A stretch of 34,861 nt of DNA from positions 1 through 34,861 of the forward strand of contig DULZ01000037.1 of assembly GCA_012840125.1 (NCBI GenBank). The letters are read 5' to 3'. This document shows positions 1,731 to 16,330 of this stretch, in pieces; within the stretch, counting starts at the first letter, position 1; each line of letters starts with the position of its first letter. Under the pieces are notes generated by a model. It was not told where the DNA came from. It made no database searches and worked only from the letters and a program-made list of their open reading frames with translations. The position numbers and the translations under genes are program-made. Origin of the DNA: Clostridia bacterium. GTDB taxonomy: Bacteria > Bacillota > DULZ01.

Positions 1731-2369
1731 TTAAGCGACCCAGTTTTTACAGATTTTCACACCTTCCGCCGCATTAGTGGTAAAAGCATCGGCGCCAATT
1801 TTCCGGCAGGCACTTTCCGTCACCGGGTTCCCGCCGATGATGACTTTGACCGTATCCCGCAAGCCTGCTTCTTCCAGGGCTTTCACTGTTTTCTCCATGG
1901 AATCCAGGGCGAGGGTTAACACACCGCTCATACCGACGATCTGGGGTTGGACTTCCTTAACCTTGTCTACAAAAGCCCCCGGCTTTTGATCAATGCCCAA
2001 GTCGTAAACTTCGAAACCGGCGGCTTCAGCCATGTTCCGGAAAATGTTTTTGCCGATATCGTGCAGGTCCCCCTCCACGGTGCCTAAGACAATTTTACCT
2101 ATCTTTTTCGCGTCGCTGCTGCCTAAAACGGGCTTAAGCATCTGCATCACTCTGGTCAGCAGGTCACCGGCATAAATCAAATCGGCCACATAGTATTCGC
2201 CCTGCTCGAACAAGTCCCCCACTTTGGTCATTCCCTGCTGGCAGCTGTTTACCACCAGTTGAGCCTCTTCCGGCGTGGGGTTGCCCGCCACGAACTCCCC
2301 GATCATGGCCAGCAACTGTTCCTCGTTGAGATCTCCTAAAGCTTGGACCAGGGCCTGTAAATCAATCAT
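1731..2369 (-). CDS. Methyltransferase cognate corrinoid protein (MtaC/MtbC/MttC type)
   Basis: A 212-aa cobalamin-binding methyl carrier. The N-terminal half is the helical cap (MtaC N-terminal-like). The C-terminal half is a Rossmann-type B12 domain with the lower-ligand motif DLHDIG in GTVEGDLHDIGKN, then GMSGVLTLALDSM and VIIGGNPVT, which form the nucleotide-tail pocket. An open frame extends upstream to 2477, but the ATG at 2369 follows a textbook GAGGAGG site and gives the family's normal length and start (MIDLQ). In known systems such proteins are methylated by a substrate-specific methyltransferase and demethylated by a UroD-fold MtaA-like protein. A UroD-family gene sits in the divergent operon, but no MtaB/MttB homologue is in the window. 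Expression is probably controlled from the palindromic intergenic region shared with the operon at 2707. Confidence 0.93.
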   Translation of the reverse strand: MIDLQALVQALGDLNEEQLLAMIGEFVAGNPTPEEAQLVVNSCQQGMTKVGDLFEQGEYYVADLIYAGDLLTRVMQMLKPVLGSSDAKKIGKIVLGTVEGDLHDIGKNIFRNMAEAAGFEVYDLGIDQKPGAFVDKVKEVQPQIVGMSGVLTLALDSMEKTVKALEEAGLRDTVKVIIGGNPVTESACRKIGADAFTTNAAEGVKICKNWVA

Positions 2370-2706: not shown

Positions 2707-3879
2707 TTGAAAACCGAAGACCCAGCGGCAAGGCTTGGAGCGGCTTACGAGGTGTTGGCCCGGGCTTACCGCAACCGGCATGAGCGGGCCCTTCAGTGGA
2801 AGGAACAGGGTGGACGGGTGCTGGCATGCCTGGGAAGCGATGTGCCGGAAGAGTTGGTCCTGGCCGCCGGCTACTTGCCCGTCAGGGTGTGCGGCGAACC
2901 GGGGCAGGCCACTCCCCTGGCGGACCGCTACTTGGAACTGGCTTTTGAGCCCACGGCCCGGTCCAAATTCAACCGCCTACTTGACGGTACTTATGCTTAT
3001 GCGGACGGCTTGGTAATATCCAACTCAACGGATGTGCTGGTGCGTCTTTACTTTTATCTCAGGGAACTGCATCGTGTCGAGCCGGAAATCGAACTTCCTC
3101 CTTTTTACTTCTTAGATCTACTGTTCATGCCGTCCATGATCAGCAGTGAATACAATCTGGGGACTTTAAGGAGCTTTCAGAGGATTTTGGAAGAATGGAG
3201 CGGGCAGGAAATTACTCCGGACCAATTACAGGAGGCCATCCGGTTATGTAATGAAAACAGGGCACTGCTGCGCCAATTGGCGGAGCTTCGCCGGGGAACT
3301 GCTCCGAGAGTAACCGGGGTGGAAGCCCTTACCATCATCGGTGCCTCCTTGCTCATGCCCAAAGAAGAACATAATCGCCTGCTTTGTGAAATCTTAGACA
3401 AAGCTCGCCGGCTGCCTCCTTTAGAGGGGGTCAGGCTCTTTGTTACCGGCAGCGTCCATGAGCAAACGGATTTCTATGAATTGATCGAAGCTTGCGGCGG
3501 GATTGTTGTCGGGGAAGACCATGACTGGGGTAACCGTCACTTCCATACCGATGTGGCTACCGATGTGGAGCCCCTGGCAGCCATCCGGGATCGCTATCAC
3601 CTGCGGCTGGCGTCTCCGAACAAGCACCTGGTGTCGCACCGGGTCAGGGCACTCCTGGACCAAGTGCAAGAATGCGGCGCTGAGGGAGTTGTCTTCTTCA
3701 TGCGAACCTATGATGAAGCCTCCACTTGGGATTACCCGGAGCAGCATCAAATACTGGAAAGTTTGGGGATTCCCAGCAAGTTGTTTGTCAGGCAGCCCTA
3801 CACACTGGCCAACCGCCGCCAGTTGATGGAAGACATCACGGAACTGGTAGCCCAGGTCCGGGCCGGGAGGAGGGAGTGA
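2707..3879 (+). CDS. 2-hydroxyacyl-CoA dehydratase/benzoyl-CoA reductase-like subunit lacking Fe-S cysteines
   Basis: A 390-aa protein of the HgdB/BcrB-BcrC/FldBC family. Family members form heterodimers that carry [4Fe-4S] clusters for radical dehydration of 2-hydroxyacyl-CoA or for ring reduction. The fold is recognisable from VLACLGSDVPEELVLAAGY near 38-56, an ADGLVISNSTDVLVRLY segment near 99-115 and FMRTYDEASTWDYPE near 331-345. Where active subunits have Cys in the second and third of these segments, this one has Ser107/Thr108 and Thr334/Tyr335. The first cluster Cys region (near 80-90) also lacks Cys. It probably binds no cluster and serves as a structural or substrate-binding partner of the next gene. 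The start is TTG at 2707 behind AAGGAGATGA. It ends 3 bases before the next start, so the two are translationally linked. Confidence 0.85.
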   Translation: MKTEDPAARLGAAYEVLARAYRNRHERALQWKEQGGRVLACLGSDVPEELVLAAGYLPVRVCGEPGQATPLADRYLELAFEPTARSKFNRLLDGTYAYADGLVISNSTDVLVRLYFYLRELHRVEPEIELPPFYFLDLLFMPSMISSEYNLGTLRSFQRILEEWSGQEITPDQLQEAIRLCNENRALLRQLAELRRGTAPRVTGVEALTIIGASLLMPKEEHNRLLCEILDKARRLPPLEGVRLFVTGSVHEQTDFYELIEACGGIVVGEDHDWGNRHFHTDVATDVEPLAAIRDRYHLRLASPNKHLVSHRVRALLDQVQECGAEGVVFFMRTYDEASTWDYPEQHQILESLGIPSKLFVRQPYTLANRRQLMEDITELVAQVRAGRRE

Positions 3880-3882
3880 GGT

Positions 3883-5190
3883 ATGACGGCTAAGGAAGAG
3901 GCAGGAAAAAAAGTGCCGGAAAAAGGACAGCGCAGTGTCAAAAGGCTTCAAGTTGCTAAGGAAGCCAGCGCTTATCAAAAAGAATGGTTTATGGGACTTG
4001 GTCAAAGAGTGGCTGCCGGTGAGCCCTTCGCCTACCTCAATGCCGATGTGCCCATGGAAATCTTTCGAGCCATGGACATTCCCTTTGTGGTGAACCAGTG
4101 GTGGGCGTCCATTTGTGCGGCAAAGCAAATGACACCATATTACTTTAACTTGTTGAAAGAAGAGAATTACCGGGACGACGTTTGCCAGTACTGCGTGACG
4201 GCCCTGGCCTGCTCCTTCGATCCGAAACCGGAGGAAGGGCCTTGGGGCGGGCTGCCCAAGCCCTCCATTGCGGTGACCAGGTTAACCTGCGATGCCCAGG
4301 GGAAGATTTTTGAGTTGCTGGCCAAGCGGTACGGCGCCAGTTTTTATCCCATGGAAAACACCATTCCCTTAATTGCCCCTGACAACTGGTGGGAAAAGGC
4401 CCCGTATCGCTGGGAAGAGCTGTATGAACCGCGCCGGTTGGATTTTGCCGTGGAGGACTTAAAGGGGCTGATCCGCTTCTTGGAATTGACCACCGGACGG
4501 GCATTCAGCATGACCAGGTTCGAAAAAGTGATGGACCTGATCAACCAGCAAGAGGAGTATTACCGGCTGACCCGTGATTTAATTGCCCAAACCGTCCCGG
4601 CTCCGGTCACCATCGCCGATGTGGTGGGTCCGGTGATGCAGGCCCAGTGGCAGCGGGGCACCGAATGGGCGGTGGAAAACGCCCGCAAGCTGTACCTGGA
4701 AATCAAGGATTTAGTGGACCGTGGTGCAGCCGCTTGTCCCAATGAACGGATCCGGTTGGGCTGGATCGGCAGGGGATTATGGTTTAACCTCGGGTTTTAC
4801 CAGTATTTCGAAGAAAAATACGGTGCCGTTTTCGTCTGGTCCATGTATCTTGCCATGGGAGCCGACGCATATATCCGCTACGGCGGTGACCCCCTGCGGC
4901 GGTTGGCTTCGCGGTTTATCGGCATGGAAGATTTCCTGCACATGCCGCCCTGGAACAACCAGTGGTTTTTGAAAGAAGCCAAGAACAATCAACTGGACGG
5001 AGTGGTTTACCTGGTCCCGGAAAACTGCATGCAGGCCGTCGAAGGCTCCTACTTCATTGCTAAAGCATTGGAGGATGCCGGTATCCCGGTGCTCATGCTG
5101 AGAGCGGATCCCGTGGATGCGCGCAAATGGAACCAAGCAACCATGACGGCAGCGGTGGAAAGTTTTATCAAAGAGAGACTAGGAGGGTAG
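3883..5190 (+). CDS. 2-hydroxyacyl-CoA dehydratase/benzoyl-CoA reductase-like subunit, cysteines retained
   Basis: A 435-aa partner of the preceding gene in the same family. It keeps plausible [4Fe-4S] ligands: Cys101, Cys104 and Cys110 in CQYCVTALAC, Cys136 in RLTCDAQGK, and Cys382 in VPENCMQAVEGSY. The last matches the family position that typically reads FCxxxxYxxP. The N-terminal ~30 residues are charged and look like an extra tail. The ATG at 3883 follows a purine-rich GGAGGAGGGAGTGAG inside the end of the upstream gene. Classical dehydratases need an ATP-dependent activator (HgdC/FldI type) with an ASKHA fold. None is encoded here, so it is either supplied elsewhere or the reaction differs. 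Placement directly before a family III CoA-transferase mirrors the FldABC and HadABC organisation. The substrate is unknown. Confidence 0.87.
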   Translation: MTAKEEAGKKVPEKGQRSVKRLQVAKEASAYQKEWFMGLGQRVAAGEPFAYLNADVPMEIFRAMDIPFVVNQWWASICAAKQMTPYYFNLLKEENYRDDVCQYCVTALACSFDPKPEEGPWGGLPKPSIAVTRLTCDAQGKIFELLAKRYGASFYPMENTIPLIAPDNWWEKAPYRWEELYEPRRLDFAVEDLKGLIRFLELTTGRAFSMTRFEKVMDLINQQEEYYRLTRDLIAQTVPAPVTIADVVGPVMQAQWQRGTEWAVENARKLYLEIKDLVDRGAAACPNERIRLGWIGRGLWFNLGFYQYFEEKYGAVFVWSMYLAMGADAYIRYGGDPLRRLASRFIGMEDFLHMPPWNNQWFLKEAKNNQLDGVVYLVPENCMQAVEGSYFIAKALEDAGIPVLMLRADPVDARKWNQATMTAAVESFIKERLGG

Positions 5191-5194
5191 TTGC

Positions 5195-6409
5195 ATGTCC
5201 AGGTCTGTCTTAGAAGGCATTAAAGTCCTTGATCTTACCCAGTTCGAATCCGGTACGGTGTGTACGGAAACCCTGGCTTGGATGGGAGCCGAAGTATTAA
5301 AAGTGGAGCGTCCCAGAACCGGTGAAGCCGGGCGCTATTCCGTCGAAGAGCCCGGTGTGGATACCTACGGTTTTATCATTCTCAATGCCAATAAGAAGTC
5401 CATTACTTTAAACCTCAAGAGCGAAAAAGGAAAGGAGATACTCTGGCAGCTGATCGATAAGGTGGATGTATTCATTGAAAATATGGGACCGGGATCCATT
5501 GAACGCCTGGGTTTCGGTTATGAAGCAGTGAGCCGCCGCAATCCACGCATAGTGTACGCCCAGATCAAGGGTTTCGGTACGGACGGCCCTTACCGGGATT
5601 ACCCGGCCTTTGACCCTATTGCTCAGGCTGTAGGCGGTTCAGCCAGCATGACCGGTGAACCTGACGGGCCACCCATGCAGCCGGGCCCCAACCTGGCCGA
5701 CAGCGGTGCCGGGTATTTGACGGCGTTGAGTATTGTGGGAGCCCTGTACCAGCGGTACTCTACCGGTAAAGGGCAGCATATTGAAGTGGCCATGCAAGAT
5801 GTGGTCATCGGTTTTTGTCGTTCTGCCTGGGAGCAGCATTACCGGAACAATCAGGCAGCTCCCCGGGTTGGCAATGGTATGCCCCTGGAGCCGGTGGCCC
5901 CGGCCAATATGTATCCCTGTAAACCGGGTGGTCCTAATGACTATGTCCATATCTATTGTTCACGTCATCCGGGCAGTCATCACTGGCGCACCTTGTGCAA
6001 GATCATTGGGCACCCGGAGGCTGCCGATGATCCCCGCTTTGCTACCCCACGTTCCCGCTACCTGCATCGCCATGAGATTGATGCCATGATCAGCAATTGG
6101 ACCCGCCAATATACCAAATTTGAAGCGATGGAGATTCTCGCCAAGGCCGATATTCCAGCCGGCGCTGTTTTAGATACCATGGACATTACGAATGATCCCT
6201 ATTTGCGTAAGAGAGGGATTATGGCTGAAATTGAGCACCCGCAGCGAGGTAAAATGCTCATCCCCGGTTTTGCACCAAAGATGTCCGGCAACCAGGTCCG
6301 GATTACTTGCTCACCGGGGCTGGGCGAGCATAATGAGGAGATCTACCGGGGCCTTTTAGCCATCTCCCAGGAGGAGTATCGCCGGCTTCAAGAAGAGGGA
6401 GTCATCTAA
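5195..6409 (+). CDS. Family III (CaiB/BaiF) CoA-transferase
   Basis: A 404-aa enzyme, normal for the family, that moves CoA from an acyl-CoA donor to a free carboxylate. N-terminal LEGIKVLDLTQFESGT and GAEVLKVERP are the family's CoA-binding start. The catalytic aspartate is Asp169 in GPNLADSGAG, the same number as in formyl-CoA transferase. The C-terminal region keeps the family pattern (TNDPYLRKRG, then GFAPKMSG). The ATG lies behind TAGGAGGG, only 4 bases after the previous gene. It most likely activates the acid imported by the TRAP system to the CoA thioester used by the two dehydratase-like subunits, in the manner of FldA or HadA. The exact acid cannot be inferred from sequence. Confidence 0.92.
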   Translation: MSRSVLEGIKVLDLTQFESGTVCTETLAWMGAEVLKVERPRTGEAGRYSVEEPGVDTYGFIILNANKKSITLNLKSEKGKEILWQLIDKVDVFIENMGPGSIERLGFGYEAVSRRNPRIVYAQIKGFGTDGPYRDYPAFDPIAQAVGGSASMTGEPDGPPMQPGPNLADSGAGYLTALSIVGALYQRYSTGKGQHIEVAMQDVVIGFCRSAWEQHYRNNQAAPRVGNGMPLEPVAPANMYPCKPGGPNDYVHIYCSRHPGSHHWRTLCKIIGHPEAADDPRFATPRSRYLHRHEIDAMISNWTRQYTKFEAMEILAKADIPAGAVLDTMDITNDPYLRKRGIMAEIEHPQRGKMLIPGFAPKMSGNQVRITCSPGLGEHNEEIYRGLLAISQEEYRRLQEEGVI

Positions 6410-6445
6410 GGCTTCCTGACAACCCAGGCAGGAGGGGATGCCAGC

Positions 6446-7585
6446 ATGGATACTAATCTGTATAATGCCAGGTTTGAGAGATTTCAAAAAGCCTACCATG
6501 TGGAAGTGCCGGACCGGATCCCCATCGAGGGGCAGTTTACTCCCACCTTTATGCTGGATTATTGCGGTTATTCTTTAAAGACATGGGATCCGGCCGTAGT
6601 GGACCGGGCCGTGGACCGGGTCCTCGGTGAATTCGACTATGATTACGTGCGGAGTATCTTTTACCGGTCACCTCAATATTTCATTCAACTCGGGGCGAAG
6701 ACTTTTGTGCAAAGCGAAGACGGGACAATGCAGCACCCGGATGTGCACGGGTTAGAGCCGGAGGAATACCCGGAGTTCATCGCTGATCCTTTTAAAACTA
6801 TCGTAGAAAAAATCGTGCCCCGTCTCTACACGGAATTGGCGAAACCGTATCCTTATAACGCCGTTGCTGTCGCGAAGGCAATTTATACGAACCACATGCT
6901 GCGGGAAAAATTTAAAGCCATTCAGGATAAGTACCGGGAAAAATACAGCATCCCTTATACCGGTGGGGGTATGCTGGCGGCACCCTTTGATTTCGTCGCT
7001 GATTTCATTCGCAGTTTCAGCGGCATCAGCATCGATATCCGGCGGCGGCCCGATCAAGTGGCGGCCGCTTGTGAAGCGGTGCTTCCCCTGCTAATTAAGA
7101 AAGGAATGTCCGGTCCTAACGGGATAACCAAAACGATTTCCATGCCTTTGCACATGGCTCCCTATTTAAAGGAAGCCGATTTTGAGAGATTTTACTGGCC
7201 CACGTTCAAGAAATTGTGCGATGTTATGACGGAAAATGGGTACTATCTATATATTTTCTTTGAGCAAGACTGGACCAGGTTCCTGGACTACCTGCAGGAA
7301 CTGCCCAAGGGCCGGATTTTGGCCAAGTTCGAATACGGGAATCCCAAGTTGATTAAAGAAAAATTGGGCAAGAACGTATGCATTTCAGGTTTGTACCCGG
7401 TGGAGCTGCTTAAGAACGGCACCAAACGAGAATGCATTGAAAAAGCCCAGGAGCTAATCGAGATCCTGGCTCCGGGAGGGGGATATATTTTCGGCCTCGA
7501 CAAATCGGTGATGAAAAAGAGCGACATTAATCCTGAAAACCTTAAGGCGGTTACCCAGTTTATCATTCGTGAAGGAAAGTACTAG
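6446..7585 (+). CDS. Uroporphyrinogen decarboxylase-family protein (putative corrinoid methyltransferase)
   Basis: A 379-aa TIM-barrel protein of the UroD superfamily. It resembles the MtaA/CmuA and O-demethylase branch more than haem-pathway HemE. Visible elements are an N-terminal VPDRIPIEGQ, a central ISMPLHMAPYL with a candidate zinc-ligand His, KNVCISGLYPVELL with a candidate zinc-ligand Cys, and the C-terminal PGGGYIFG turn. HemE function is unlikely because of the catabolic setting and the lack of its arginine-rich N-terminus. With the corrinoid protein divergently encoded nearby, the best inference is methyl transfer between substrate, corrinoid and tetrahydrofolate or thiol. Start ATG 6446 follows AGGAGGGG. 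It lies 36 bases after the CoA-transferase in the same operon. Confidence 0.83.
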   Translation: MDTNLYNARFERFQKAYHVEVPDRIPIEGQFTPTFMLDYCGYSLKTWDPAVVDRAVDRVLGEFDYDYVRSIFYRSPQYFIQLGAKTFVQSEDGTMQHPDVHGLEPEEYPEFIADPFKTIVEKIVPRLYTELAKPYPYNAVAVAKAIYTNHMLREKFKAIQDKYREKYSIPYTGGGMLAAPFDFVADFIRSFSGISIDIRRRPDQVAAACEAVLPLLIKKGMSGPNGITKTISMPLHMAPYLKEADFERFYWPTFKKLCDVMTENGYYLYIFFEQDWTRFLDYLQELPKGRILAKFEYGNPKLIKEKLGKNVCISGLYPVELLKNGTKRECIEKAQELIEILAPGGGYIFGLDKSVMKKSDINPENLKAVTQFIIREGKY

Positions 7586-7597
7586 GAGGCTGGGACT

Positions 7598-7744
7598 ATG
7601 AACACGAAGGAACCGGTACTGTTGTCATGGGAAGAGTTTATCGCCCAGGTGGGAGAGAAGGTGACGGATGATCCCAAAGCGCCGGAACTTTGGGAACGAG
7701 TACAGACTGATGTATTTAACTTCTTTATCTCACTTTTGATGTAG
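7598..7744 (+). CDS. Small 48-aa protein of unknown function
   Basis: A short gene in the operon between the UroD-like gene and the TRAP genes. Start ATG 7598 has a good AGGAGG at 7584-7589, and the gene ends at TAG 7742-7744. The product begins MNTKEPVLLSWEEF, is acidic in the middle (TDDPKAPELWERV) and ends in a hydrophobic FNFFISLLM tail. No domain is recognised. Good ribosome site, operon position 12 bases after the upstream stop and amphipathic composition argue that it is translated. It might be a small subunit or assembly partner of the neighbouring enzymes, but nothing in the sequence proves this. Confidence 0.6.
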   Translation: MNTKEPVLLSWEEFIAQVGEKVTDDPKAPELWERVQTDVFNFFISLLM

Positions 7745-7797
7745 ATCTAATGACCGGTCTGTCCGTGTGAGTAAATATCCCGAAAAGGAGGACCTCG

Positions 7798-8280
7798 ATG
7801 AGTAAGTTCGGCAAGTTTTATGACGGCTTAATGCGCTTTACCCTGTATTTGTCCAGTATCGGGCTGTTCTTGCTGGTGGTACTGGTGACGGCGAACACCA
7901 TTGGACGCGGCTTCCGGCATCCCATTCCCGGAGGGTATGATTTAATTACTCTTAGCGCGGCGGTATGCGGCAGCTTGTCCATAGCCTATTGCACGAAACT
8001 CAAAGGGCATGTCCATGTTGATATCGTCGTCAACGTGTTATCGCCGCGGGGTAAGAAGATACAAAAGATTATCTGCGGCATTATGGGTATTGCTCTATGG
8101 TGTCTTATTGCTTGGCAGAGTGTGAAGGTCTTCCTCACCCGGTTGACTACTGAAGTGACGGAAGTGTTGAAAATACCCTATGCCCCCTTTAGATTCCTCT
8201 TTGTGTTTTCCATGATACTCACGGTAGTGATCTTAGTTGAACAATTAATCGAAGACATGCAAGGGGGTAAAGAAGCATGA
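7798..8280 (+). CDS. dctQ: TRAP transporter small permease (DctQ)
   Basis: A 160-aa inner-membrane protein with four hydrophobic spans, typical of the small membrane subunit of tripartite ATP-independent periplasmic transporters. Family signatures are the first helix followed by NTIGRGF, the second span after GGYDLITLSAAVCGS, and KLKGHVHVDIVV before the third. It partners the large permease encoded next, with which it overlaps by 4 bases (ATGA). The ribosome site AAAAGGAGG precedes ATG 7798. These importers use an ion gradient to take up organic acids. Its place directly after the enzyme genes implies that the operon's substrate is an imported carboxylate. Confidence 0.92.
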   Translation: MSKFGKFYDGLMRFTLYLSSIGLFLLVVLVTANTIGRGFRHPIPGGYDLITLSAAVCGSLSIAYCTKLKGHVHVDIVVNVLSPRGKKIQKIICGIMGIALWCLIAWQSVKVFLTRLTTEVTEVLKIPYAPFRFLFVFSMILTVVILVEQLIEDMQGGKEA

Positions 8281-9578
8281 GTCCAGTCACTATAGGGATT
8301 ATCGGCATGATCGCCTTGATTGCCTTGATGGCATACGGCATGCCTGTAGGTTTCGCGATGGCTCTTGTCGGCTTTGTCGGCATGGCGATACTCATCAGCC
8401 CAACGGCCGCCATCACTAAACTGGCTACCACTCCTTTTGGTTATGTGGCCAGCTATGACTATGCCGTTGTACCGATGTTTATCTTAATGGCAAACATTAT
8501 TGTCGTTTCGGGACTTGGAACTAATCTATTCAATATTGCTGAAAAGTTCCTTGGTCGCTTCAACGGAGGCATGGCCATGGCCACTACCGGCGGTTGTGCA
8601 GGTTTTGCCGCCATCAGTGGTTCTTCTTTGACCACCTCCTTGACCATCGGTACTGCAGCAATCCCGGAAATGAAGAGATACAAATATGACCTGGATTTTG
8701 CCGGGGCGACGATCGCCGCCAGCGGAACCCTGGGGCTTCTCATCCCCCCCAGTACCGCCTTGATGCTCTACGGGATTGTTACCGGTAACTCCATTAAGGA
8801 TTTATTCCTGGCCGGGTATATTCCGGGTATCCAGCAGGCTTTATTCTATCTCTTGGTTATTTACCTGCTGACCAAAATCAATCCGGCTCTTGGGCCCCGT
8901 GGTCCTAAATACAGTTGGAAGGAAAAGTGGGATGCACTGAAACAAGGTGGAGAAATACTTCTCTTGATTACTTTTGTGATTTTGGGCTTGTTTATGGGGT
9001 GGTTTACGGCCACGGAAGCCGGGGCGGTCGGGACCGCCGGCGCCCTTTTGATAGTCTTGCTGCGCAAGCGGTTGACCTGGGAAGGTTTCCTGAAAGCGAT
9101 TAGCGATACGGTGAGGGTATCCGGTATGTACTATGTAATCATTATCGGTGCCCAATTGTTCATGAACTTTACAACAGTTACTACCCTACCGACCATGTTG
9201 GCCCATGGGATTCAGAATTCCGGACTGTCCCCCCTAATGGTTGTTTTCCTGATTGTGGTGATCTATCTCTTCCTCGGTATGTTTATCAACGGTACGGCGA
9301 TGATGCTTTTGACTCTGCCGATTTTCTACCCGTTAATCATAGACCTTGGCTTTAATCCCATTTGGTTTGGTGTCTTGGCTACGAGGGTAAGTGAAACGGG
9401 CCTTTTGACCCCGCCGGTTGGTTTGGGCGTTTACAGTATGAAAGCTATTATGCCGGACCTGAATCTGGCGAGAGTGTTCAAATTCACAATGTACTTTGTG
9501 GTTACCGATATCATCCATGCGATACTGCTTGTGCTCTTCCCGGGGATGGTCACATTCTTACCGGACATAGCGAGGTAA
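8277..9578 (+). CDS. dctM: TRAP transporter large permease (DctM)
   Basis: A 433-aa polytopic membrane protein, the ion-coupled transport channel of the TRAP system. It has about 12 hydrophobic segments and the DctM/GntP-like signatures VPMFILMANI, GCAGFAAISGSS, ASGTLGLLIPPSTALMLYG and TEAGAVGTAGALL. The C-terminal half repeats the same topology, with FINGTAMMLLTLPIFYPLI and TGLLTPPVGLGVY. Length and order are normal and no break is seen. It is translationally coupled to dctQ by an ATGA overlap. The solute-binding partner gene follows after 133 bases. Confidence 0.95.
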   Translation: MSPVTIGIIGMIALIALMAYGMPVGFAMALVGFVGMAILISPTAAITKLATTPFGYVASYDYAVVPMFILMANIIVVSGLGTNLFNIAEKFLGRFNGGMAMATTGGCAGFAAISGSSLTTSLTIGTAAIPEMKRYKYDLDFAGATIAASGTLGLLIPPSTALMLYGIVTGNSIKDLFLAGYIPGIQQALFYLLVIYLLTKINPALGPRGPKYSWKEKWDALKQGGEILLLITFVILGLFMGWFTATEAGAVGTAGALLIVLLRKRLTWEGFLKAISDTVRVSGMYYVIIIGAQLFMNFTTVTTLPTMLAHGIQNSGLSPLMVVFLIVVIYLFLGMFINGTAMMLLTLPIFYPLIIDLGFNPIWFGVLATRVSETGLLTPPVGLGVYSMKAIMPDLNLARVFKFTMYFVVTDIIHAILLVLFPGMVTFLPDIAR

Positions 9579-9711
9579 AGTGTCTTCCCGGGAGCCGTAG
9601 AAGGGGGTGTGAGACGGTTCCAAATGCCGCTTACTGAGTTTCCGGTTAGATAGGAGAGGGCTGGCTGGTTTGGAAAACTGACTCTAACTTTGACCAAAGG
9701 GGTGTATCACA

Positions 9712-10818
9712 GTGACAAAAGTCAGGGGTAATTGGTTGCTCACGATTATCTTAAGTGCTGTGCTCATTCTGACCGGTGTGGCTTTAGCCGGGTGTTCCGG
9801 CGGCTCCGATGGCTCTGCTGACACTTCCTCCGGTGACAATGACGCGGCGGAGCAGGAAGTGATCACGCTGACGTTTACTTCTTTCAGCACTTTGCCCCAA
9901 ACTGCTGCCAAAGTGGACCATGAGTTCATTAAACGAATTGAAGAAGTGACCAATGGTAGAGTGAAGTTCCAGTATTACGGCGGGGGCACCCTAATTAGCG
10001 GTAATGATGCTGCAGCTGAACTAGGCAGCGGGGTAGCGGATTTCGGTATCCCGCGGGTGGGATATTCTCCCCATGGTTATGATTTGAATAAAGCATATAT
10101 GACTTTTATGTTCAACTGCGATCCCTATGATGCAGAAATGGAATTGGATATTGCCCATCAAATTTTTGCACAGTACCCGCAGTTTGACCAGGAGTTCTTG
10201 GAGAATGGGATGGTCCCCTACGCCGGTAATGCCAGCGGTACTTCCCGGGCCCTGTTTACCACCAAACCGATCAAATCTTTAGATGACCTGAAAGGCGCGT
10301 CCATCCGTGCCACCGGAAACTGGGCGGAGATCGTGAAAGGATTAGGTGCCGAGCCGGTTAACATTCCTATTTCTGAAACATACTTAGCGCTGGAAAAAGG
10401 TACCGTTGACGGTGTCATCGGCCTGGCCACCTTCACCCTGGAAGCTGACAAACTGGCGGAAGTGGTCAAGTATTGTTATGACTTAAAAGTCAACTTTGCA
10501 CCGATTTATGAATGGGCCTTCTGCAAGGCCACTTGGGACAAGCTGCCCGATGACATTAAGCAGGTCTTTATTGACAACAGGGACTTCCTGGAAATGAAAT
10601 CCGTAGAAATCAACGTTGCCGATACTCTACCGGCGGAAGAGTATGCCAAGAGTTTAGGTGTGCAATTCTTAGAGCTCAGTGATGAAGACCAAGCCAAACT
10701 ATATGATGTTATTGATAAAGTGAACAGGCAGGTGGCGGCAGACCTGGACGCCAAGGGAATTCCCGGCACGGAGATTTATGAAGCAACGCAAAAGCTGATT
10801 AAGGAATACAAAAAGTAG
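9712..10818 (+). CDS. dctP: TRAP transporter solute-binding lipoprotein (DctP)
   Basis: A 368-aa extracytoplasmic binding protein. The N-terminus has basic residues, a hydrophobic core and a lipobox ending LAGC, so it should be a membrane-anchored lipoprotein as expected in a Gram-positive. The mature part follows the DctP pattern: FTSFSTLPQT, a mid-domain GASIRATGNWAEIVKGLGA, then NIPISETYLALEKGTVDGVIG, whose region in characterised members holds the carboxylate-binding arginine (here probably that of SIRATG). Start is GTG 9712 with AAAGGGG upstream. The ligand cannot be deduced, but DctP proteins nearly always bind a carboxylate. Binding proteins are commonly expressed more than the permeases, and this gene has its own 133-base leader. 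Confidence 0.93.
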   Translation: MTKVRGNWLLTIILSAVLILTGVALAGCSGGSDGSADTSSGDNDAAEQEVITLTFTSFSTLPQTAAKVDHEFIKRIEEVTNGRVKFQYYGGGTLISGNDAAAELGSGVADFGIPRVGYSPHGYDLNKAYMTFMFNCDPYDAEMELDIAHQIFAQYPQFDQEFLENGMVPYAGNASGTSRALFTTKPIKSLDDLKGASIRATGNWAEIVKGLGAEPVNIPISETYLALEKGTVDGVIGLATFTLEADKLAEVVKYCYDLKVNFAPIYEWAFCKATWDKLPDDIKQVFIDNRDFLEMKSVEINVADTLPAEEYAKSLGVQFLELSDEDQAKLYDVIDKVNRQVAADLDAKGIPGTEIYEATQKLIKEYKK

Positions 10819-11013: not shown

Positions 11014-12771
11014 TTATGGTTCATGCTTAGAAAAAGCTTCCGAAACAGGTTTGATACAGCCAAAAGGACAGGTTTGGGCGCAGGCGCCGCATTTGATGCA
11101 CAGCCGGTCGTCGACGAAAAAGCGGACGGTGCCCTTCCGGTTCTTTACTGCGCCGGAAGGACAGACCAAATAACAGCAGCGGCACTGTTTACATTTCCCC
11201 TGGAGAATTTCAAAACGAATGAGATCCTTGCACGCGATGGTGGGACAGTATCCCGCGGCGTGGGCGGCAAATTCTGAGCGGAAATACCGCAGCCCGGATA
11301 GAACGAGCTGCGCCGGAGAACAACCGGTGGGGCACCGGGTTTCCCGGGCCACCTGCCGGGCTATTGCTTCGATTTCTTCGAGCACTCCCCCATAGCCCTG
11401 CCCTTGGGTCAGCAGGGAGAGTTTGGTCTTTAATGCAGCGATACCTGTCTCGCAGGCAGGGCTGCCTGCACAGTACCTCGGGGTTTGCGTATTAATCGCG
11501 GCCAGAGTCCGGTCCACGATACAGCGGTGCCTGTCCAATACCACCAGCTCATGGAACATGAAGCCGGTAGTGTTGGCGCTTTTGGTGGTTTGGTTGTCAA
11601 AGGGAAGAAAGGTACCGTTAGGGAACTCCACTTGTAAAGCTTTCCAAGAGCCGGATGATTTATTGGTTATGGTTTGGACCAGCGCCGGCAAGTCTTCCTC
11701 CGCCGGCACTTCGACGAAACCGTGGCTTTTGAGGTCACCGCTTAAATAAAAAACGCGGGTATCCGGTTGCTCAGGCCCGGAGCCGGCGGCCCGGCGTACC
11801 AGCCCCGGGATGTGGGCCAGGGGCTGCAAGGGTTCCAGGGTAAGGCCGTGCGGTGCCGTCGCACCACCGGAGTGAGTTTGGTTATGGGCCACCGCTATTT
11901 CCAGACCATAATCCGTCCCCAAGATGTGGTCGCCCACCAAGCCGTATTCCCTGGCGGTGGCGATGGCCCGCTCCAGGAGGGCGGCGGCCAGGGCGTGTTT
12001 GGCGGGTATGTAAATCACTGCTTGCGAAAAGCCCAAAGCATAGCCTGTTAAGAGCAGGCTTTCCAACAAGTGGTGGGGGTTGTTTTCCACCAGGGCCAGT
12101 TCCAGGGGAGTGAGCTCTGTGGAACTGCCAACAGTCATGCATGGGGCCTCAAGAGGAGCGGGAGGCTGCCGGTCATCAAGGTTCAGCAAGGGGGAGGCGG
12201 TAATTAACTGCCGCAGCTTTTCCGGCGAGAATTGTTGTAACGCATCCCGTAGGGTAAAATACCCGCCGGTGGCGATATATTCGGCGATGTCTTGGGGATC
12301 GATGAAACCCCAGCTGTGGCTGATAGACCGCCGTTGGAGCTTGAAGAAACGAGCCAGGGAGGTTTGGCGGTCGCCGGTGATGCTTAAATCCGAGAAGCCC
12401 TGCAGCCTGCCCGGTTCTTTTTCCACTGCGGTTAACCACAGGTAAGAGGTAGGTTGATGTCCCTCCACCAGCCGGATTACGTGCCAAAGGGATTTACCGT
12501 CCACCCGGCCGAAGAAATAATGCCTCCCATCGGGCAGGCGCACATGGATTAACGGCTCGGCAAAGCAGGCGCCTAAGCAGCCTACGCCGGTTACCTTGAC
12601 AGGGAGCGCCCAGTCCCGGCGGGCGGCCAGCTTGTCGCGCAAAAGACCTGCTCCCTTGGCCAATCCGCAGGAAGAGGTGCCCACGTTAATCCTAACGGCA
12701 GAAGAGGGACATAAGCTCCGGCGACCGGTTTCCGCTAAGTGTTCCAGTATACCTGGGTTGTACTGAACCAT
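11014..12771 (-). CDS. NuoF/HymB-like iron-sulfur protein lacking the FMN/NADH site, with C-terminal 2[4Fe-4S] ferredoxin
   Basis: A 585-aa protein laid out like HndC/HymB-type NADH-binding subunits. It has an N-terminal thioredoxin-like [2Fe-2S] part (GTSSCG, then GVGCLGAC), a middle with FIDPQDIAEYIATGGYF and LLESLLLTGYALGF, the subunit-type cluster region (YCAGSPACETG, TRCPTGC, SGLRYFRSEF) and two [4Fe-4S] ferredoxin motifs (CKQCRCCYLVCP, CIKCGACAQTCP). What should be SGLRGRGGAGFPTG reads SPLLNLDDRQPPAP. The GAGAYICGEETAL segment is also absent, so FMN and NADH binding look lost while every cluster region remains. It is probably an electron relay for the Mo/W enzyme rather than an NADH dehydrogenase. 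ATG 12771 has GGAGGTTAGGTAG upstream. It is the last gene of the operon. Confidence 0.85.
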   Translation of the reverse strand: MVQYNPGILEHLAETGRRSLCPSSAVRINVGTSSCGLAKGAGLLRDKLAARRDWALPVKVTGVGCLGACFAEPLIHVRLPDGRHYFFGRVDGKSLWHVIRLVEGHQPTSYLWLTAVEKEPGRLQGFSDLSITGDRQTSLARFFKLQRRSISHSWGFIDPQDIAEYIATGGYFTLRDALQQFSPEKLRQLITASPLLNLDDRQPPAPLEAPCMTVGSSTELTPLELALVENNPHHLLESLLLTGYALGFSQAVIYIPAKHALAAALLERAIATAREYGLVGDHILGTDYGLEIAVAHNQTHSGGATAPHGLTLEPLQPLAHIPGLVRRAAGSGPEQPDTRVFYLSGDLKSHGFVEVPAEEDLPALVQTITNKSSGSWKALQVEFPNGTFLPFDNQTTKSANTTGFMFHELVVLDRHRCIVDRTLAAINTQTPRYCAGSPACETGIAALKTKLSLLTQGQGYGGVLEEIEAIARQVARETRCPTGCSPAQLVLSGLRYFRSEFAAHAAGYCPTIACKDLIRFEILQGKCKQCRCCYLVCPSGAVKNRKGTVRFFVDDRLCIKCGACAQTCPFGCIKPVSEAFSKHEP

Positions 12772-12848: not shown

Positions 12849-13184
12849 CTAGGGGATGAAAAGGGCCATTTTCCTTCCTTTAGCGTTCATTTTTTCAATC
12901 AGTTCTTCTACGGGACCGTACTCCATGCATTGACCGAGGCAGTGGTGGACACAGGAGGGCTTTTTCCCCTGGGCCACCCTCTCGCCGCAGAGGTCGCAGA
13001 GTGAAGTGGGAACGGGAACATAATTCCATTCCCACTTTTCATCGTCAATTTTCCAAGGCCCAACTTCCATCAACTTAATGCCCCATTTTCCTTTGGGAAT
13101 CTGCTTTTCCATTTTACAGGCTACTTCACAGCTGTGGCAGCCGGTGCAGTATTCGTAATCAATCAGCAAACCGTTTACTGACAT
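12849..13184 (-). CDS. Small ferredoxin-type electron-transfer subunit (DmsB/HybA-like, short)
   Basis: A 111-aa iron-sulfur protein with eight cysteines arranged for two [4Fe-4S] clusters: CTGCHSCEVAC near residues 13-23, then CDLC and SCVHHC in the second half. It is like the beta subunits of DMSO-reductase-family enzymes but with only one pair of clusters. It should pass electrons between the catalytic subunit, whose gene ends 48 bases upstream, and the NuoF-like protein. The open frame extends to 13232, but ATG 13184 directly follows GGAGGGAGCTCA and begins MSVNGLLIDYEYCTGC, the normal start of such subunits. No Tat signal is seen, so a cytoplasmic location is expected. Confidence 0.88.
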   Translation of the reverse strand: MSVNGLLIDYEYCTGCHSCEVACKMEKQIPKGKWGIKLMEVGPWKIDDEKWEWNYVPVPTSLCDLCGERVAQGKKPSCVHHCLGQCMEYGPVEELIEKMNAKGRKMALFIP

Positions 13185-13232
13185 TGAGCTCCCTCCATTC
13201 ATGTAGTAGTTTTCCGCCGTGGGGTGACACAC

Positions 13233-15476
13233 TTAAATGCCTTCGTCAGTTTTGGTGACTTTACAAATGACGCTCTTCAGCGGTGCGCCGAAACCGAGTT
13301 TCCCGATGTGCTTGTGCGGGACCATGGTGTTGATGTTGGATTCCCACACGCCGAACAAGCTGGGTTCTTCACCGGGTTTTTCCGGGTACCACCAGCCGTG
13401 GGTAGCATGGACCACTTTCGGGTGAATCGTGGGTGTCAGCTTGGCCTTCAGTTTTGCTTTACCGAACATGTTCTCAATGATGACCCAATCCCCGTCTTTA
13501 ATGTTGTATTGAGCGGCAGTTTCCGGGTGGATCTCCAGCTCGGGCCAGGGATCGATTTCTCTTAAGGTCGGTATTTGCCTGTGTTCTGAATGGAAGGAGG
13601 TAAACTTTCTCGCGCCGGTAGTGAGGATCAACGGGTACTCCTTCGCTAGTTCAGGTGTGCTGTACGGGCTGTAATGGGGTTCCTGGTAGTACGGCAGCGG
13701 ATCGTCGCCCCACTGTTCAAAGAGAACGGAACGCAGCTCCACTTTACCGGTGACGGTGTTAAAGCCCGGCTCCCCGTCATCTCTGAGCAAGCCTTTTTCA
13801 TATTTCCTGTATTCCACCGGGGTCTGGTAGACGCCCATTTCTCGCAAGTCGTTGAAACTAATCCCCAGCTCGGGTTCAAGTTGTTTAGTGAAGAAGTCTT
13901 CCACGCTGTCATAAGGCCACATGTGCGGGTACAGTTTCTTGCCTAATTCAATGCAGACTTCGATGTCAGACTTGGTTTCACCGACGCGCAGGGCTTCATT
14001 GATGGCCCCCAGGAAGATGGCGTTCCGGCCGAAGTGGGTGAGTACCACACCGTCCATTTCGGCGAAGGTGGGCAGCGGCAAGAACACGTCTGCAAAAGCC
14101 ATGGCGGTGGGGGTCATGAAGGTATCCTGTACCACGCAGAATTCTAATGATTGCAGTGCCCTATACCAGCGGTCCGGCTGGGTGGAGCAGGTGGGGGTGA
14201 TGAAGTTGCTGCTGTTGAACCATCCCATCCTGAGCTTGTAGGGCTTGCCGGTCTCCAGGCAATCCAGAGTCACGTCCGGGTGAGTGGTGGCCAAAGCATT
14301 GGCCAGGGCAGGATATTCCTTGGCACCGATTCTTTTCTCCCATAATTCCTCGGACAGGTTGTAACGGGTTTCAATGCGCCACTTGCCCAGCAAGGCCGCT
14401 CTGGGACCTAAGGTAATGCCGCCGGGGATATCCAGGTTGCCGGTAATGGCTACGATGGACAGGAGGGCATGTCCCAGCTGCACGCCGTTGGGGTTGGTGT
14501 CCACGGCTAATCCCCATTGAATCGGGCAAGGTTTGTTGGTAGCAATGATCCTGGCTACTTCGATGATTTTTTCTTTCGGTACCCAGGTGATTTCCGCCAC
14601 TTTTTCCGGCGGGTATTCCTGGACACGCTGCTTTAAGTCCTCGAAGCCGAAGCACCATTTGTCGACGAATTCCTTATCATAGAGTTCTTCGTTGATGATG
14701 ACATGGAGCAGGCCTAGAGCCAAAGCCGTGTCGGTGCCCGGTCTTAGCTGCAATACGTGTTCCGCCCGGCTGCCCAGCCAGGTGATTCTCGGGTCCACAT
14801 GGATGATCTTGGTGCCTCGCTTCATCATGTCGATGAGGGAGTGACCGTAGAAACCGTCGGGGTTGGACATTAAGGGGTTCTTACCCCAAACGACGATGTA
14901 TTTGGGCAACTGGTAATTGGGGTTGTCATAGCGATCCGGGAAGTGCCCGGCAAAGTCGATTTCCGGGTAGCCGGCGCCCAGGATGTAGTCGGTGATAGCA
15001 CACCTGGGGCCGTAGCAAGACCAACCGCTCAGGGGATAGCAGACGTTGGGTGTGCCCAGGGAGGCAAATCCTAACGGGTAGTAGTACAAGCAGGCTTGTC
15101 TACCGGTGCCGCCGAAAACGATAATGGATTCGGCGCCGTAGTTCTCAGTGTAATACTTGACCTTCGGAACGATAATGTCCCAGGCTTCATCCCAGGAGAT
15201 TCTTTGCCACTTATTCTCCCCGCGCTTGCCCACTCTTTTCATGGGGTAGACAATTCGCTGGGGATGGTGGACGTATTCAGGCAGCGACAAGCACCTGATG
15301 CAGAGCCGGCCTTGGCTGATGGGATGCTCTTCGTCCCCTTCGACTTTAATCAGCTTGCCGTTCTTGACATGGAGTTTCATGCCGCAGCCGACGGGGTGGT
15401 CACCCGGCGGGGACCAACCGCAGGTTCTCACGATATATTCGCCGTCAGCAATTTCCTTTTTCCATTGTTTATCCAT
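13233..15476 (-). CDS. Mo/W-bisPGD oxidoreductase, DMSO-reductase superfamily (acetylene hydratase/BamB-like)
   Basis: A 747-aa catalytic subunit carrying a bis-pyranopterin Mo or W centre and one N-terminal Fe-S cluster. The cluster motif reads Cys19-x6-Asp26-x4-Cys31-x27-Cys59, so one usual cysteine ligand is Asp26. Cys154 in GWSCYGPRC sits where the metal-ligand Cys of acetylene hydratase and similar enzymes lies. Pterin-domain segments include KNPLMSNPDGF, IIHVDPRITW and RPGTDTALALGLLHVI. The C-terminal barrel carries LILTTGARKFTSFHSEH and HPETAAQYNIKDGDWV. Length fits the superfamily. There is no Tat signal, so it is cytoplasmic. Starts at ATG 15476 behind AAGGGTGG. No molybdenum or tungsten cofactor genes are in the window. 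The reaction cannot be assigned; a hydratase, hydroxylase or ring-reduction role linked to the CoA operon is possible. Confidence 0.9.
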   Translation of the reverse strand: MDKQWKKEIADGEYIVRTCGWSPPGDHPVGCGMKLHVKNGKLIKVEGDEEHPISQGRLCIRCLSLPEYVHHPQRIVYPMKRVGKRGENKWQRISWDEAWDIIVPKVKYYTENYGAESIIVFGGTGRQACLYYYPLGFASLGTPNVCYPLSGWSCYGPRCAITDYILGAGYPEIDFAGHFPDRYDNPNYQLPKYIVVWGKNPLMSNPDGFYGHSLIDMMKRGTKIIHVDPRITWLGSRAEHVLQLRPGTDTALALGLLHVIINEELYDKEFVDKWCFGFEDLKQRVQEYPPEKVAEITWVPKEKIIEVARIIATNKPCPIQWGLAVDTNPNGVQLGHALLSIVAITGNLDIPGGITLGPRAALLGKWRIETRYNLSEELWEKRIGAKEYPALANALATTHPDVTLDCLETGKPYKLRMGWFNSSNFITPTCSTQPDRWYRALQSLEFCVVQDTFMTPTAMAFADVFLPLPTFAEMDGVVLTHFGRNAIFLGAINEALRVGETKSDIEVCIELGKKLYPHMWPYDSVEDFFTKQLEPELGISFNDLREMGVYQTPVEYRKYEKGLLRDDGEPGFNTVTGKVELRSVLFEQWGDDPLPYYQEPHYSPYSTPELAKEYPLILTTGARKFTSFHSEHRQIPTLREIDPWPELEIHPETAAQYNIKDGDWVIIENMFGKAKLKAKLTPTIHPKVVHATHGWWYPEKPGEEPSLFGVWESNINTMVPHKHIGKLGFGAPLKSVICKVTKTDEGI

Positions 15477-15657: not shown

Positions 15658-15819
15658 TCAAGGTTTCTTTTGTTCCGGTTGCTGCCCGTCTTTAGGCTGT
15701 TCCAAAGAAGCACCGCAGAAAGGACATTTCTTTTGGACAACGCCGCCGATGAATTGGATCTTTTTTTGGCAGTTTGGGCATACTGCCCCTTTGGCAGCCG
15801 ACGCCGGTCTGAAGCACAT
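15658..15819 (-). CDS. Small zinc-ribbon protein
   Basis: A 53-aa protein, first gene of the minus-strand redox operon. Two CPxC knuckles (CPNC at about residues 14-17 and CPFC at about 32-35) form a zinc ribbon, followed by a charged, Gln/Pro-rich tail. Start ATG 15819 has GAGGAGG 9 bases upstream. An open frame to 15933 exists, but its upstream part overlaps the structured leader and lacks a ribosome site. It might be an assembly factor or regulator for the Mo/W enzyme encoded 181 bases downstream. That is inference from position only. Confidence 0.72.
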   Translation of the reverse strand: MCFRPASAAKGAVCPNCQKKIQFIGGVVQKKCPFCGASLEQPKDGQQPEQKKP

Positions 15820-15882
15820 AATTTTTAACCTCCTCACGCTGGCATGGAATAGAATATTTTGAGATAATGAATAAAGAGTCTT

Positions 15883-15939
15883 AGCTATTTGCCCTGGGTG
15901 GCTGGTGAGGATTCCAGCAGTCCGCGCCGGCAAACAGCT
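15883..15939 (-). promoter_or_regulatory. Structured 5' leader of the redox operon (riboswitch-like candidate)
   Basis: On the minus-strand transcript, arms 15939-15929 and 15893-15883 form an 11-bp stem whose only non-Watson-Crick pair is G-U (a mismatch on the + strand). Inside is a second 5-bp stem (15918-15914 with 15905-15901, 8-base loop) separated by an asymmetric internal loop. It lies between the sigma-54 promoter and the first gene. No known riboswitch class was recognised. Confidence 0.5.
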
Positions 15940-15976
15940 GAAGACAAGTGCAGCAAGCTGGCTATGAGCTTAATAA

Positions 15977-15992
15977 AGCAATAATTATGCCA
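15977..15992 (-). promoter_or_regulatory. Sigma-54 (-24/-12) promoter of the redox operon
   Basis: The minus strand reads TGGCATAATTATTGCT, matching TGGCAYR-N4-TTGCW at every defined position with the required GG-N10-GC spacing. Transcription would start near 15965, giving a leader of about 146 bases before the zinc-ribbon gene. It fits control by a sigma-54 activator such as the one at the left edge. Confidence 0.8.
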
Positions 15993-16010
15993 AAAGGTAC
16001 GTATTACCGG

Positions 16011-16055
16011 TACGGTGCTCCAGGAAGATAATACAGCGGGTTTTGCTGCACCGTA
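16011..16055. promoter_or_regulatory. Inverted repeat upstream of the sigma-54 promoter, candidate activator site
   Basis: TACGGTGC (16011-16018) and GCACCGTA (16048-16055) are perfect inverted copies 29 bases apart, with an inner CAGC/GCTG pair. They lie 19-63 bases upstream of the -24 element, a region where sigma-54 activators may bind, although classical sites are often farther upstream. Confidence 0.45.
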
Positions 16056-16173
16056 GGCATGCGGGGCCTGGGCGGGGGGAGGTTTTCCGATATTTTTTTA
16101 GGACAGCAGTGTCTTTTTAAGATTCACGGTTTCCGGCGTGAAGCTGCCAATGGTAGGTAACCGGGTTTTACAC

Positions 16174-16202
16174 TTGAGGCTGAGAAAAATTTTTGATATA
16201 AT
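16174..16202 (+). promoter_or_regulatory. Sigma-A-type promoter of the tRNA-Sec gene
   Basis: TTGAGG (16174-16179), 17-base spacer, TATAAT (16197-16202), about 32 bases before the mature tRNA 5' end. Confidence 0.8.
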
Positions 16203-16233
16203 CGGAGAGCGATATAAGGAGCACTTATTTCTT

Positions 16234-16330
16234 GGGAGCGGATTGGGCCTGGTGGCTCGCCTGGACTTCAAATCCAGTGGGACGCAGTGGACCTGCGTTC
16301 GGTGAGTTCGATTCTCACACGTTCCCGCCA
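16234..16330 (+). tRNA. selC: tRNA-Sec (anticodon TCA)
   Basis: A 97-nt tRNA including encoded CCA. The acceptor GGGAGCG pairs with CGTTCCC with one G-U. The anticodon arm CTGGA-CTTCAAA-TCCAG is that of bacterial selenocysteine tRNA, with TCA at 16268-16270. A long extra arm (GGGACGCAG...CTGCGTTC type) and T arm GTGAG-TTCGATT-CTCAC complete the molecule. It reads UGA as selenocysteine with SelA, SelB and SelD, none of which are in this window. It has its own promoter and terminator and stands alone between unrelated genes. Confidence 0.96.

Follow-up and report, generated by a model that had tools for sequence, protein, structure and literature searches.

Results

Genes and features of the locus

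The window that we analyzed, a stretch of 34,861 bases, is the entire contig C37 of a MAG of 2.47 Mb in 106 contigs (97.2% complete). Its minus strand carries a redox operon, the first gene of which (15661-15819) encodes a zinc-ribbon-like protein of 53 amino acids, with a weak match to PF18912 below the cut-off (E 1.1e-4) and a GAGGAGG ribosome site preceding its ATG. The following minus-strand genes encode a Mo/W bis-MGD oxidoreductase assigned by Pfam (13233-15476), a 4Fe-4S electron-transfer protein whose gene adjoins the Mo/W gene in relatives as well (12849-13232), and a NuoF-like flavin/Fe-S subunit (11014-12771). An intergenic region of 414 bp (15820-16233) separates this leftward operon from the rightward tRNA-Sec gene (16234-16330, plus strand), which has a sigma-70-type promoter, TTGAGG-17-TATAAT, at 16174-16202 on the plus strand, divergent from the redox operon. 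Left of the redox operon lie a CoA operon (2707-10818), a corrinoid (B12-binding) protein gene (1731-2369, minus strand) and, at the far end of the window, where the first-pass annotation had placed a sigma-54 activator gene, indeed a gene of that kind: a PF00158 gene at 2-1642 on the plus strand, also matching PF02954, that encodes a sigma-54 activator (bEBP) with a GSFTGA variant and a Fis-type HTH, open at the left contig end, where its 5' end is lost. At the right contig end (34822-34861), a group II intron domain (RF02001) begins and is interrupted by the edge.

We fetched 80 homologous loci and made promoter counts on the closest 23 (72-83% identity), with 50 more distant homologues that have a usable upstream region as the contrast set. 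The 23 relatives include Peptococcaceae MAGs, Sporomusa, Desulfosporosinus, Moorella, Syntrophomonas, Desulfuromonadaceae, Malonomonas and one Acidobacteriota MAG; they are not independent, several of the Sporomusa being near-identical, but they span several families nonetheless. Since none of the 23 relatives' loci, several of which are incomplete, holds a tRNA-Sec gene, the adjacency of tRNA-Sec is no conserved trait.

Among solved structures, the best relative of the Mo/W enzyme is acetylene hydratase (PDB 2e7z). Homologues of 56-60% identity occur in Gordonibacter and other Coriobacteriia. Because the best matches in the two genomes of the same family reach 38-41%, the gene was likely acquired from outside, as judged from these sequences. 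Homologues of the zinc-ribbon protein occur in the cassettes of many relatives, and an aromatic acid/H+ symporter family protein is found in those of Sporomusa ovata and Desulfosporosinus. Catechol dehydroxylases, which are present in many anaerobes, are described in the available text of PMC7028382 as having acetylene hydratase as their nearest relative. Based on the acetylene hydratase likeness, that published relation and the aromatic-acid symporter in the cassettes, we suggest, as a reasonable guess and no more, that the Mo/W enzyme may be a reductive aromatic enzyme.

A conserved sigma-54 promoter precedes the redox operon

The first-pass annotation had read a -24/-12 element on the minus strand at 15977-15992, and the element proved real. 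The sequence there, TGGCATAATTATTGCT, is an exact match to TGGCAYRNNNNTTGCW, with the GG at -24, the GC at -12, the fixed spacing and the consensus flanks all present, and if the T before it is included, the element is identical to the Clostridiales consensus TTGGCATNNNNNTTGCT in the available text of Nie et al. (2019; PMC6615313). The transcription start predicted by rule falls near 15966, ~147 bases ahead of the zinc-ribbon ATG. With a weight matrix built from the relatives' sites and the 15 other sites of its own genome, the promoter scored 23.3 bits compared to 13.4 for the runner-up in the window. Genome-wide, there were 16 occurrences of the exact pattern (reversed control, 0). We had also tried a strict form, TGGCAC-N5-TTGCW with up to two mismatches, which gave 18 matches in the window compared to 19.0 expected, and thus no enrichment; it was replaced by the exact Y/R form. 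Because this strict form with two mismatches was at chance level, loose-pattern statistics on the window prove nothing.

Conservation was the stronger argument. On the coding strand, an exact site lies no more than 1200 bp upstream of the homologous Mo/W gene in 18 of the 23 close relatives, and a loosened pattern does so in 21 of 23; the reversed controls gave 0 of 23 for both the exact and the loosened pattern, and the opposite strand upstream of the 23 genes held a single site. Only 1 of the 50 more distant homologues has an exact site, and therefore the promoter belongs to the close subfamily. Judged by these sequences, and chiefly through its conservation, the promoter is beyond chance.

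Paired dyads form a candidate enhancer upstream of the promoter

When the relatives' upstream regions were read side by side, common tracts were visible. We ran EM on the 23 upstream regions, with the window's genome excluded and with one coding-region sigma-54 match of L035 (-936) omitted, and obtained a 34-bp motif, TCCTAAAATGAnAtTnTGaTCnCAAAAAagGATT, which lies 179-186 bases (mostly about 181) before the TGG in 16 of the 23 regions. In a scan of both strands of the window, the best match to this motif was 16089-16122 on the minus strand (18.7 bits), with a runner-up of 2.2; none of 300 column-permuted matrices (best 16.5) and none of 200 shuffled windows (best 17.4) reached 18.7 bits. The candidate enhancer (UAS) at 16089-16123 on the minus strand, ATCTTAAAAAGACACTGCTGTCCTAAAAAAATATC, consists of paired dyads of the TCCTAAAATGA...TCnCAAAAAAGGATT type, starts 130 bp upstream of the TGG, which puts it ~125-155 bp ahead of the predicted start. 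In most relatives the enhancer lies 51 bp farther from the promoter, and the window copy has a degraded right half-motif; by eye, the window has no counterpart of the third, near-promoter dyad of the relatives (ATCTCAAAAAGAGAT type).

To search the genome we used a profile, R1, trained on 17 of the 23 upstream sites, with those that were weak or shifted, and a single near-duplicate, set aside. In the 2.47-Mb genome at E up to 5, this profile gave two matches among the 150 of 684 first-look candidates that were scored: the top match at 16093-16123 (15.9 bits, E 0.041) and a second at C103:14088-14115 (15.0 bits, E 0.079). Both matches, out of these 150 of 684 candidates, lie 120-130 bp upstream of an exact sigma-54 site on the same strand, one of the 16 in the genome. 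The single profile scores are modest, and what weight they carry as sequence evidence comes from this co-location with sigma-54 sites. In the relatives, a profile match lies upstream of the gene in 18 of 23, 16 of these being in the training set and two, L039 and L040, outside it; upstream of the Mo/W genes of L042, L044, L049, L050 and L066, there was no profile match. By sequence, the paired dyad at 16089-16123 fits the role of an activator site, and the promoter site conserved together with this motif supports the sigma-54 control of the redox operon that the first reading had suggested.

In several relatives the enhancer occurs a second time (L033:9170, L035:14169, L041:17199, L045:17233, L047:15708, L048:15735 and L072:17234), a few hundred bases upstream of a gene homologous to the small zinc-ribbon gene that heads the Mo/W operon in the window.

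A second operon has the same type of enhancer and promoter

The C103 match lies 120 bp upstream of its exact sigma-54 site, before a Mop aldehyde oxidoreductase operon (L127, C103 4197-13884, minus strand) that thus has the same enhancer type together with a sigma-54 promoter. The operon encodes a molybdopterin-dependent aldehyde oxidoreductase (NF045668), an NF045663 protein, a TrsS radical SAM protein, a DVU_1556-type methyltransferase and a DVU_1553-type ligase. From the shared site, the activator of the redox operon very probably also switches on this C103 operon.

Exact sigma-54 sites were also noted at C41:758-773 and C53:35857-35872, directly before two bis-MGD Mo-enzyme paralogues (C41:954-3098 and C53:33727-35652). 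Neither site is accompanied by a strong match of the window's enhancer. Several bis-MGD enzymes of this genome would seem, from their upstream sequences, to be sigma-54 controlled with different enhancers.

The activator gene in the window belongs to the clade linked to this enhancer

In 8 of the 23 relatives, the gene immediately upstream of the Mo/W gene, on its strand, encodes a bEBP, and in all eight the enhancer lies between the two genes. In a tree of 34 activators, an 18-row starred clade (99/99) includes all eight linked bEBPs, and of the 13 canonical sigma-54 activators of its genome, the window bEBP alone falls inside it. Within the clade it is not the closest sister of the enhancer-linked bEBPs; it pairs with a second bEBP of Sporomusa ovata (85/93), on a long branch (0.91). 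The GSFTGA form of the loop is common to nearly all members of the group and, according to the available text of PMC6615313, is compatible with activation.

The association of activator and redox operon, which the first-pass annotation had proposed from their presence on one island, is thus supported, in that no activator of its genome other than the window bEBP belongs to the clade found next to this enhancer in relatives. On this sequence evidence, the window bEBP is likely, although not proven, to act on the redox operon via the enhancer. Clade membership does not fix the site, since in Syntrophomonas (L051) two further members of the clade stand before sigma-54 sites that have no copy of this enhancer close by.

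This variation in sites within the group leaves some room for a promoter that is sigma-54 dependent with another bEBP as its activator, either L025, L027 or one lost in the gaps of an assembly of 106 contigs and 97.2% completeness. Over 42 HTH residues (L024 omitted from the comparison), the window bEBP is, with 26.5, the nearest of its genome's activators to the linked ones, followed by one at 22.9; over the 20 of the recognition helix, however, it is no closer than L025 (13.9 compared to 14.8). Against this, both L025 and L027 fall outside the starred clade, and no such enhancer accompanies the exact sigma-54 sites close to the genes of these two (L005 and L014), the upstream region of L014 showing, by eye, TGTACC-CAAAAA-GGTACA instead. 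We therefore consider another activator unlikely and retain the window bEBP as the probable one.

The CoA operon has a control region of its own

Because the bEBP gene adjoins the CoA region on the same contig, the two operons had been thought to form one sigma-54 regulon, but the interval between the activator gene and the CoA operon speaks against it. Within 1642-2707, the best listed sigma-54 score is 3.8 bits, inside a terminator hairpin, and the enhancer scan gave no match. Instead, the CoA promoter region holds two palindromes of another type, TGNGAACGTTCNCA, at 2544-2557 and 2655-2668, which are the sole copies in the genome (control, 0). A common sigma-54 regulon of the CoA and redox operons is thus very unlikely.

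Both palindromes, together with a central hairpin, lie in a 223-base imperfect palindrome (2495-2717; 111-base arms, 75% complementary) located between the corrinoid-protein gene and the CoA operon. The layout of 2495-2717 suggests a divergent control region with mirror-image halves that serves another regulator, perhaps a LacI-like one. The terminator-like symmetric hairpin (1668-1707) is common to the activator gene and the convergent corrinoid-protein gene. The island that holds the corrinoid-protein gene also contains a URO-D-type methyltransferase-like gene (6446-7585), and a methyl-transfer function of these two genes is possible.

The inverted repeat near the promoter is probably fortuitous

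A perfect 8-bp inverted repeat, TACGGTGC at 16011-16018 and GCACCGTA at 16048-16055 with a spacer of 29, does exist upstream of the promoter as first reported, but the regulatory role given to it did not hold up. It is conceivable that TACGGTGC-N29-GCACCGTA serves as the activator site, or as the site of a second regulator, in view of its perfect arms, its position between enhancer and promoter, and the three copies of the arm in the window (0.5 expected), although two of the three are the repeat itself. However, when the 414-bp intergenic region was shuffled 1000 times with its dinucleotides preserved, 15% of the shuffles contained at least one such repeat (chance 0.15), and the arms have no exact copy in up to 1300 bp upstream of the genes of the 23 relatives, most of which retain the promoter. 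In the whole window, 23 inverted repeats of the same type were found compared to 14.8 expected. We found no support for 16011-16055 as the enhancer, which it probably is not, and we regard either regulatory role as highly improbable; the paired dyad at 16089-16123 remains the candidate site.

The absence of rpoN probably reflects an assembly gap

With two models, we detected no rpoN in the genome itself. Both same-family genomes have rpoN, and in one of these it stands in a row that, named from the translations, we take to be rapZ-yvcK-whiA-rpoN-gap-pgk-tpi. In the genome of the window, searches for rapZ, whiA, gap and pgk found none, with the source genome as the positive control for the rapZ and pgk searches. 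As the loss of near-universal glycolytic genes is implausible, the whole stretch is probably missing from the assembly, and the absence of rpoN is probably an assembly gap, although the existence of rpoN is not thereby proven. That the promoter is a relic in an organism without sigma-54, as the lack of an rpoN match by both models and in 14 of 40 other genomes examined (E 0.001) might suggest, is scarcely credible with 13 intact activators, 16 exact sites against none in the control, rpoN in both same-family genomes and its neighbors rapZ, whiA, gap and pgk missing from the MAG along with it. A completeness figure of 97.2% can therefore mask the loss of core genes such as this rapZ-whiA-rpoN-gap-pgk block.

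Discussion

We consider it probable that the redox operon is under a sigma-54 promoter and an enhancer, is driven by a bEBP, and is co-regulated with the C103 operon. This reading draws on the sequence of the promoter, its conservation, the enhancer motif, the uniqueness of the enhancer in the genome (150 of 684 candidates scored), and the clade of the activator; from these we infer binding, looping, an inducer and the exclusive use of the window bEBP. In the mechanism that we propose, a bEBP, most likely that encoded at 2-1642, would bind the paired dyads at 16089-16123 as an oligomer, loop from the enhancer to the closed complex, and open this complex by ATP hydrolysis upon stimulation of its N-terminal sensor region. 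The redox operon would then be transcribed leftward from 15977-15992, in the order zinc ribbon, acetylene-hydratase-like Mo/W enzyme, 4Fe-4S protein and NuoF-like subunit.

It is possible, if slightly less than an even bet as a whole, that a transferable cassette is spread across Bacillota acetogens and syntrophs, consisting of a bEBP, a paired-dyad enhancer, a sigma-54 promoter, an acetylene-hydratase-like Mo/W enzyme and a 4Fe-4S protein, often also with an aromatic-acid symporter and a zinc ribbon, and that in this organism one activator serves two types of molybdoenzyme in response to a single substrate, perhaps an aromatic one. If so, a bis-MGD enzyme and an unrelated aldehyde oxidoreductase of the xanthine-oxidase family would be coordinated by one activator, so that the acetylene-hydratase-like enzyme would be tied to another molybdoenzyme of its own cell. 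The inducer of the activator would offer a handle on the substrate of a widespread, uncharacterized acetylene-hydratase-like subfamily. What began as a pattern read by eye is now a promoter that has been put to the test, with an enhancer assigned to it and a regulon small enough to be tested in turn. For readers of genomes the analysis also holds a lesson: the site of an activator is not necessarily the inverted repeat that lies closest.

Systems of this kind are well known. The regulon itself does not appear under recognizable names in Table 1 of PMC6615313, where an acetylene-hydratase-like operon is listed for none of the 39 groups, although the abbreviated gene names of that table could hide one. 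In the literature, we found nothing joining sigma-54 with acetylene hydratase or with Sporomusa (the spelling "sigma-54" may miss some, making this weak evidence), and nothing on acetylene hydratase with Sporomusa or on rpoN with aldehyde oxidoreductase, where the lack of papers is likewise weak evidence. In the available main text of the Desulfovibrio sigma-54 regulome (PMC4641369), none of the terms aldehyde, mop, molybd and tungst occurs.

The closest comparison is with the Clostridiales sigma-54 regulons (Nie et al. 2019; PMC6615313), for which the available text gives the same promoter consensus as here, functional GSFTGA activators, enhancers 100-250 bp upstream and activators mostly near their targets; the system described here shares the GSFTGA activator, the enhancer distance and the proximity of activator and target. 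Among these regulons, MopR acts on mopR, mop and hyp-moeA, and AorR on aor-moaD. The AorR enhancers, as given there, are TGT-N10-12-ACA repeats, whereas the window enhancer is of the TC(C/T)T-AAAA-GA type, which sets it apart from AorR. Nevertheless, the MopR and AorR groups are sigma-54 activators of molybdo- and tungsto-enzyme operons, as we propose for the activator here, and the C103 site also stands before a Mop-type gene.
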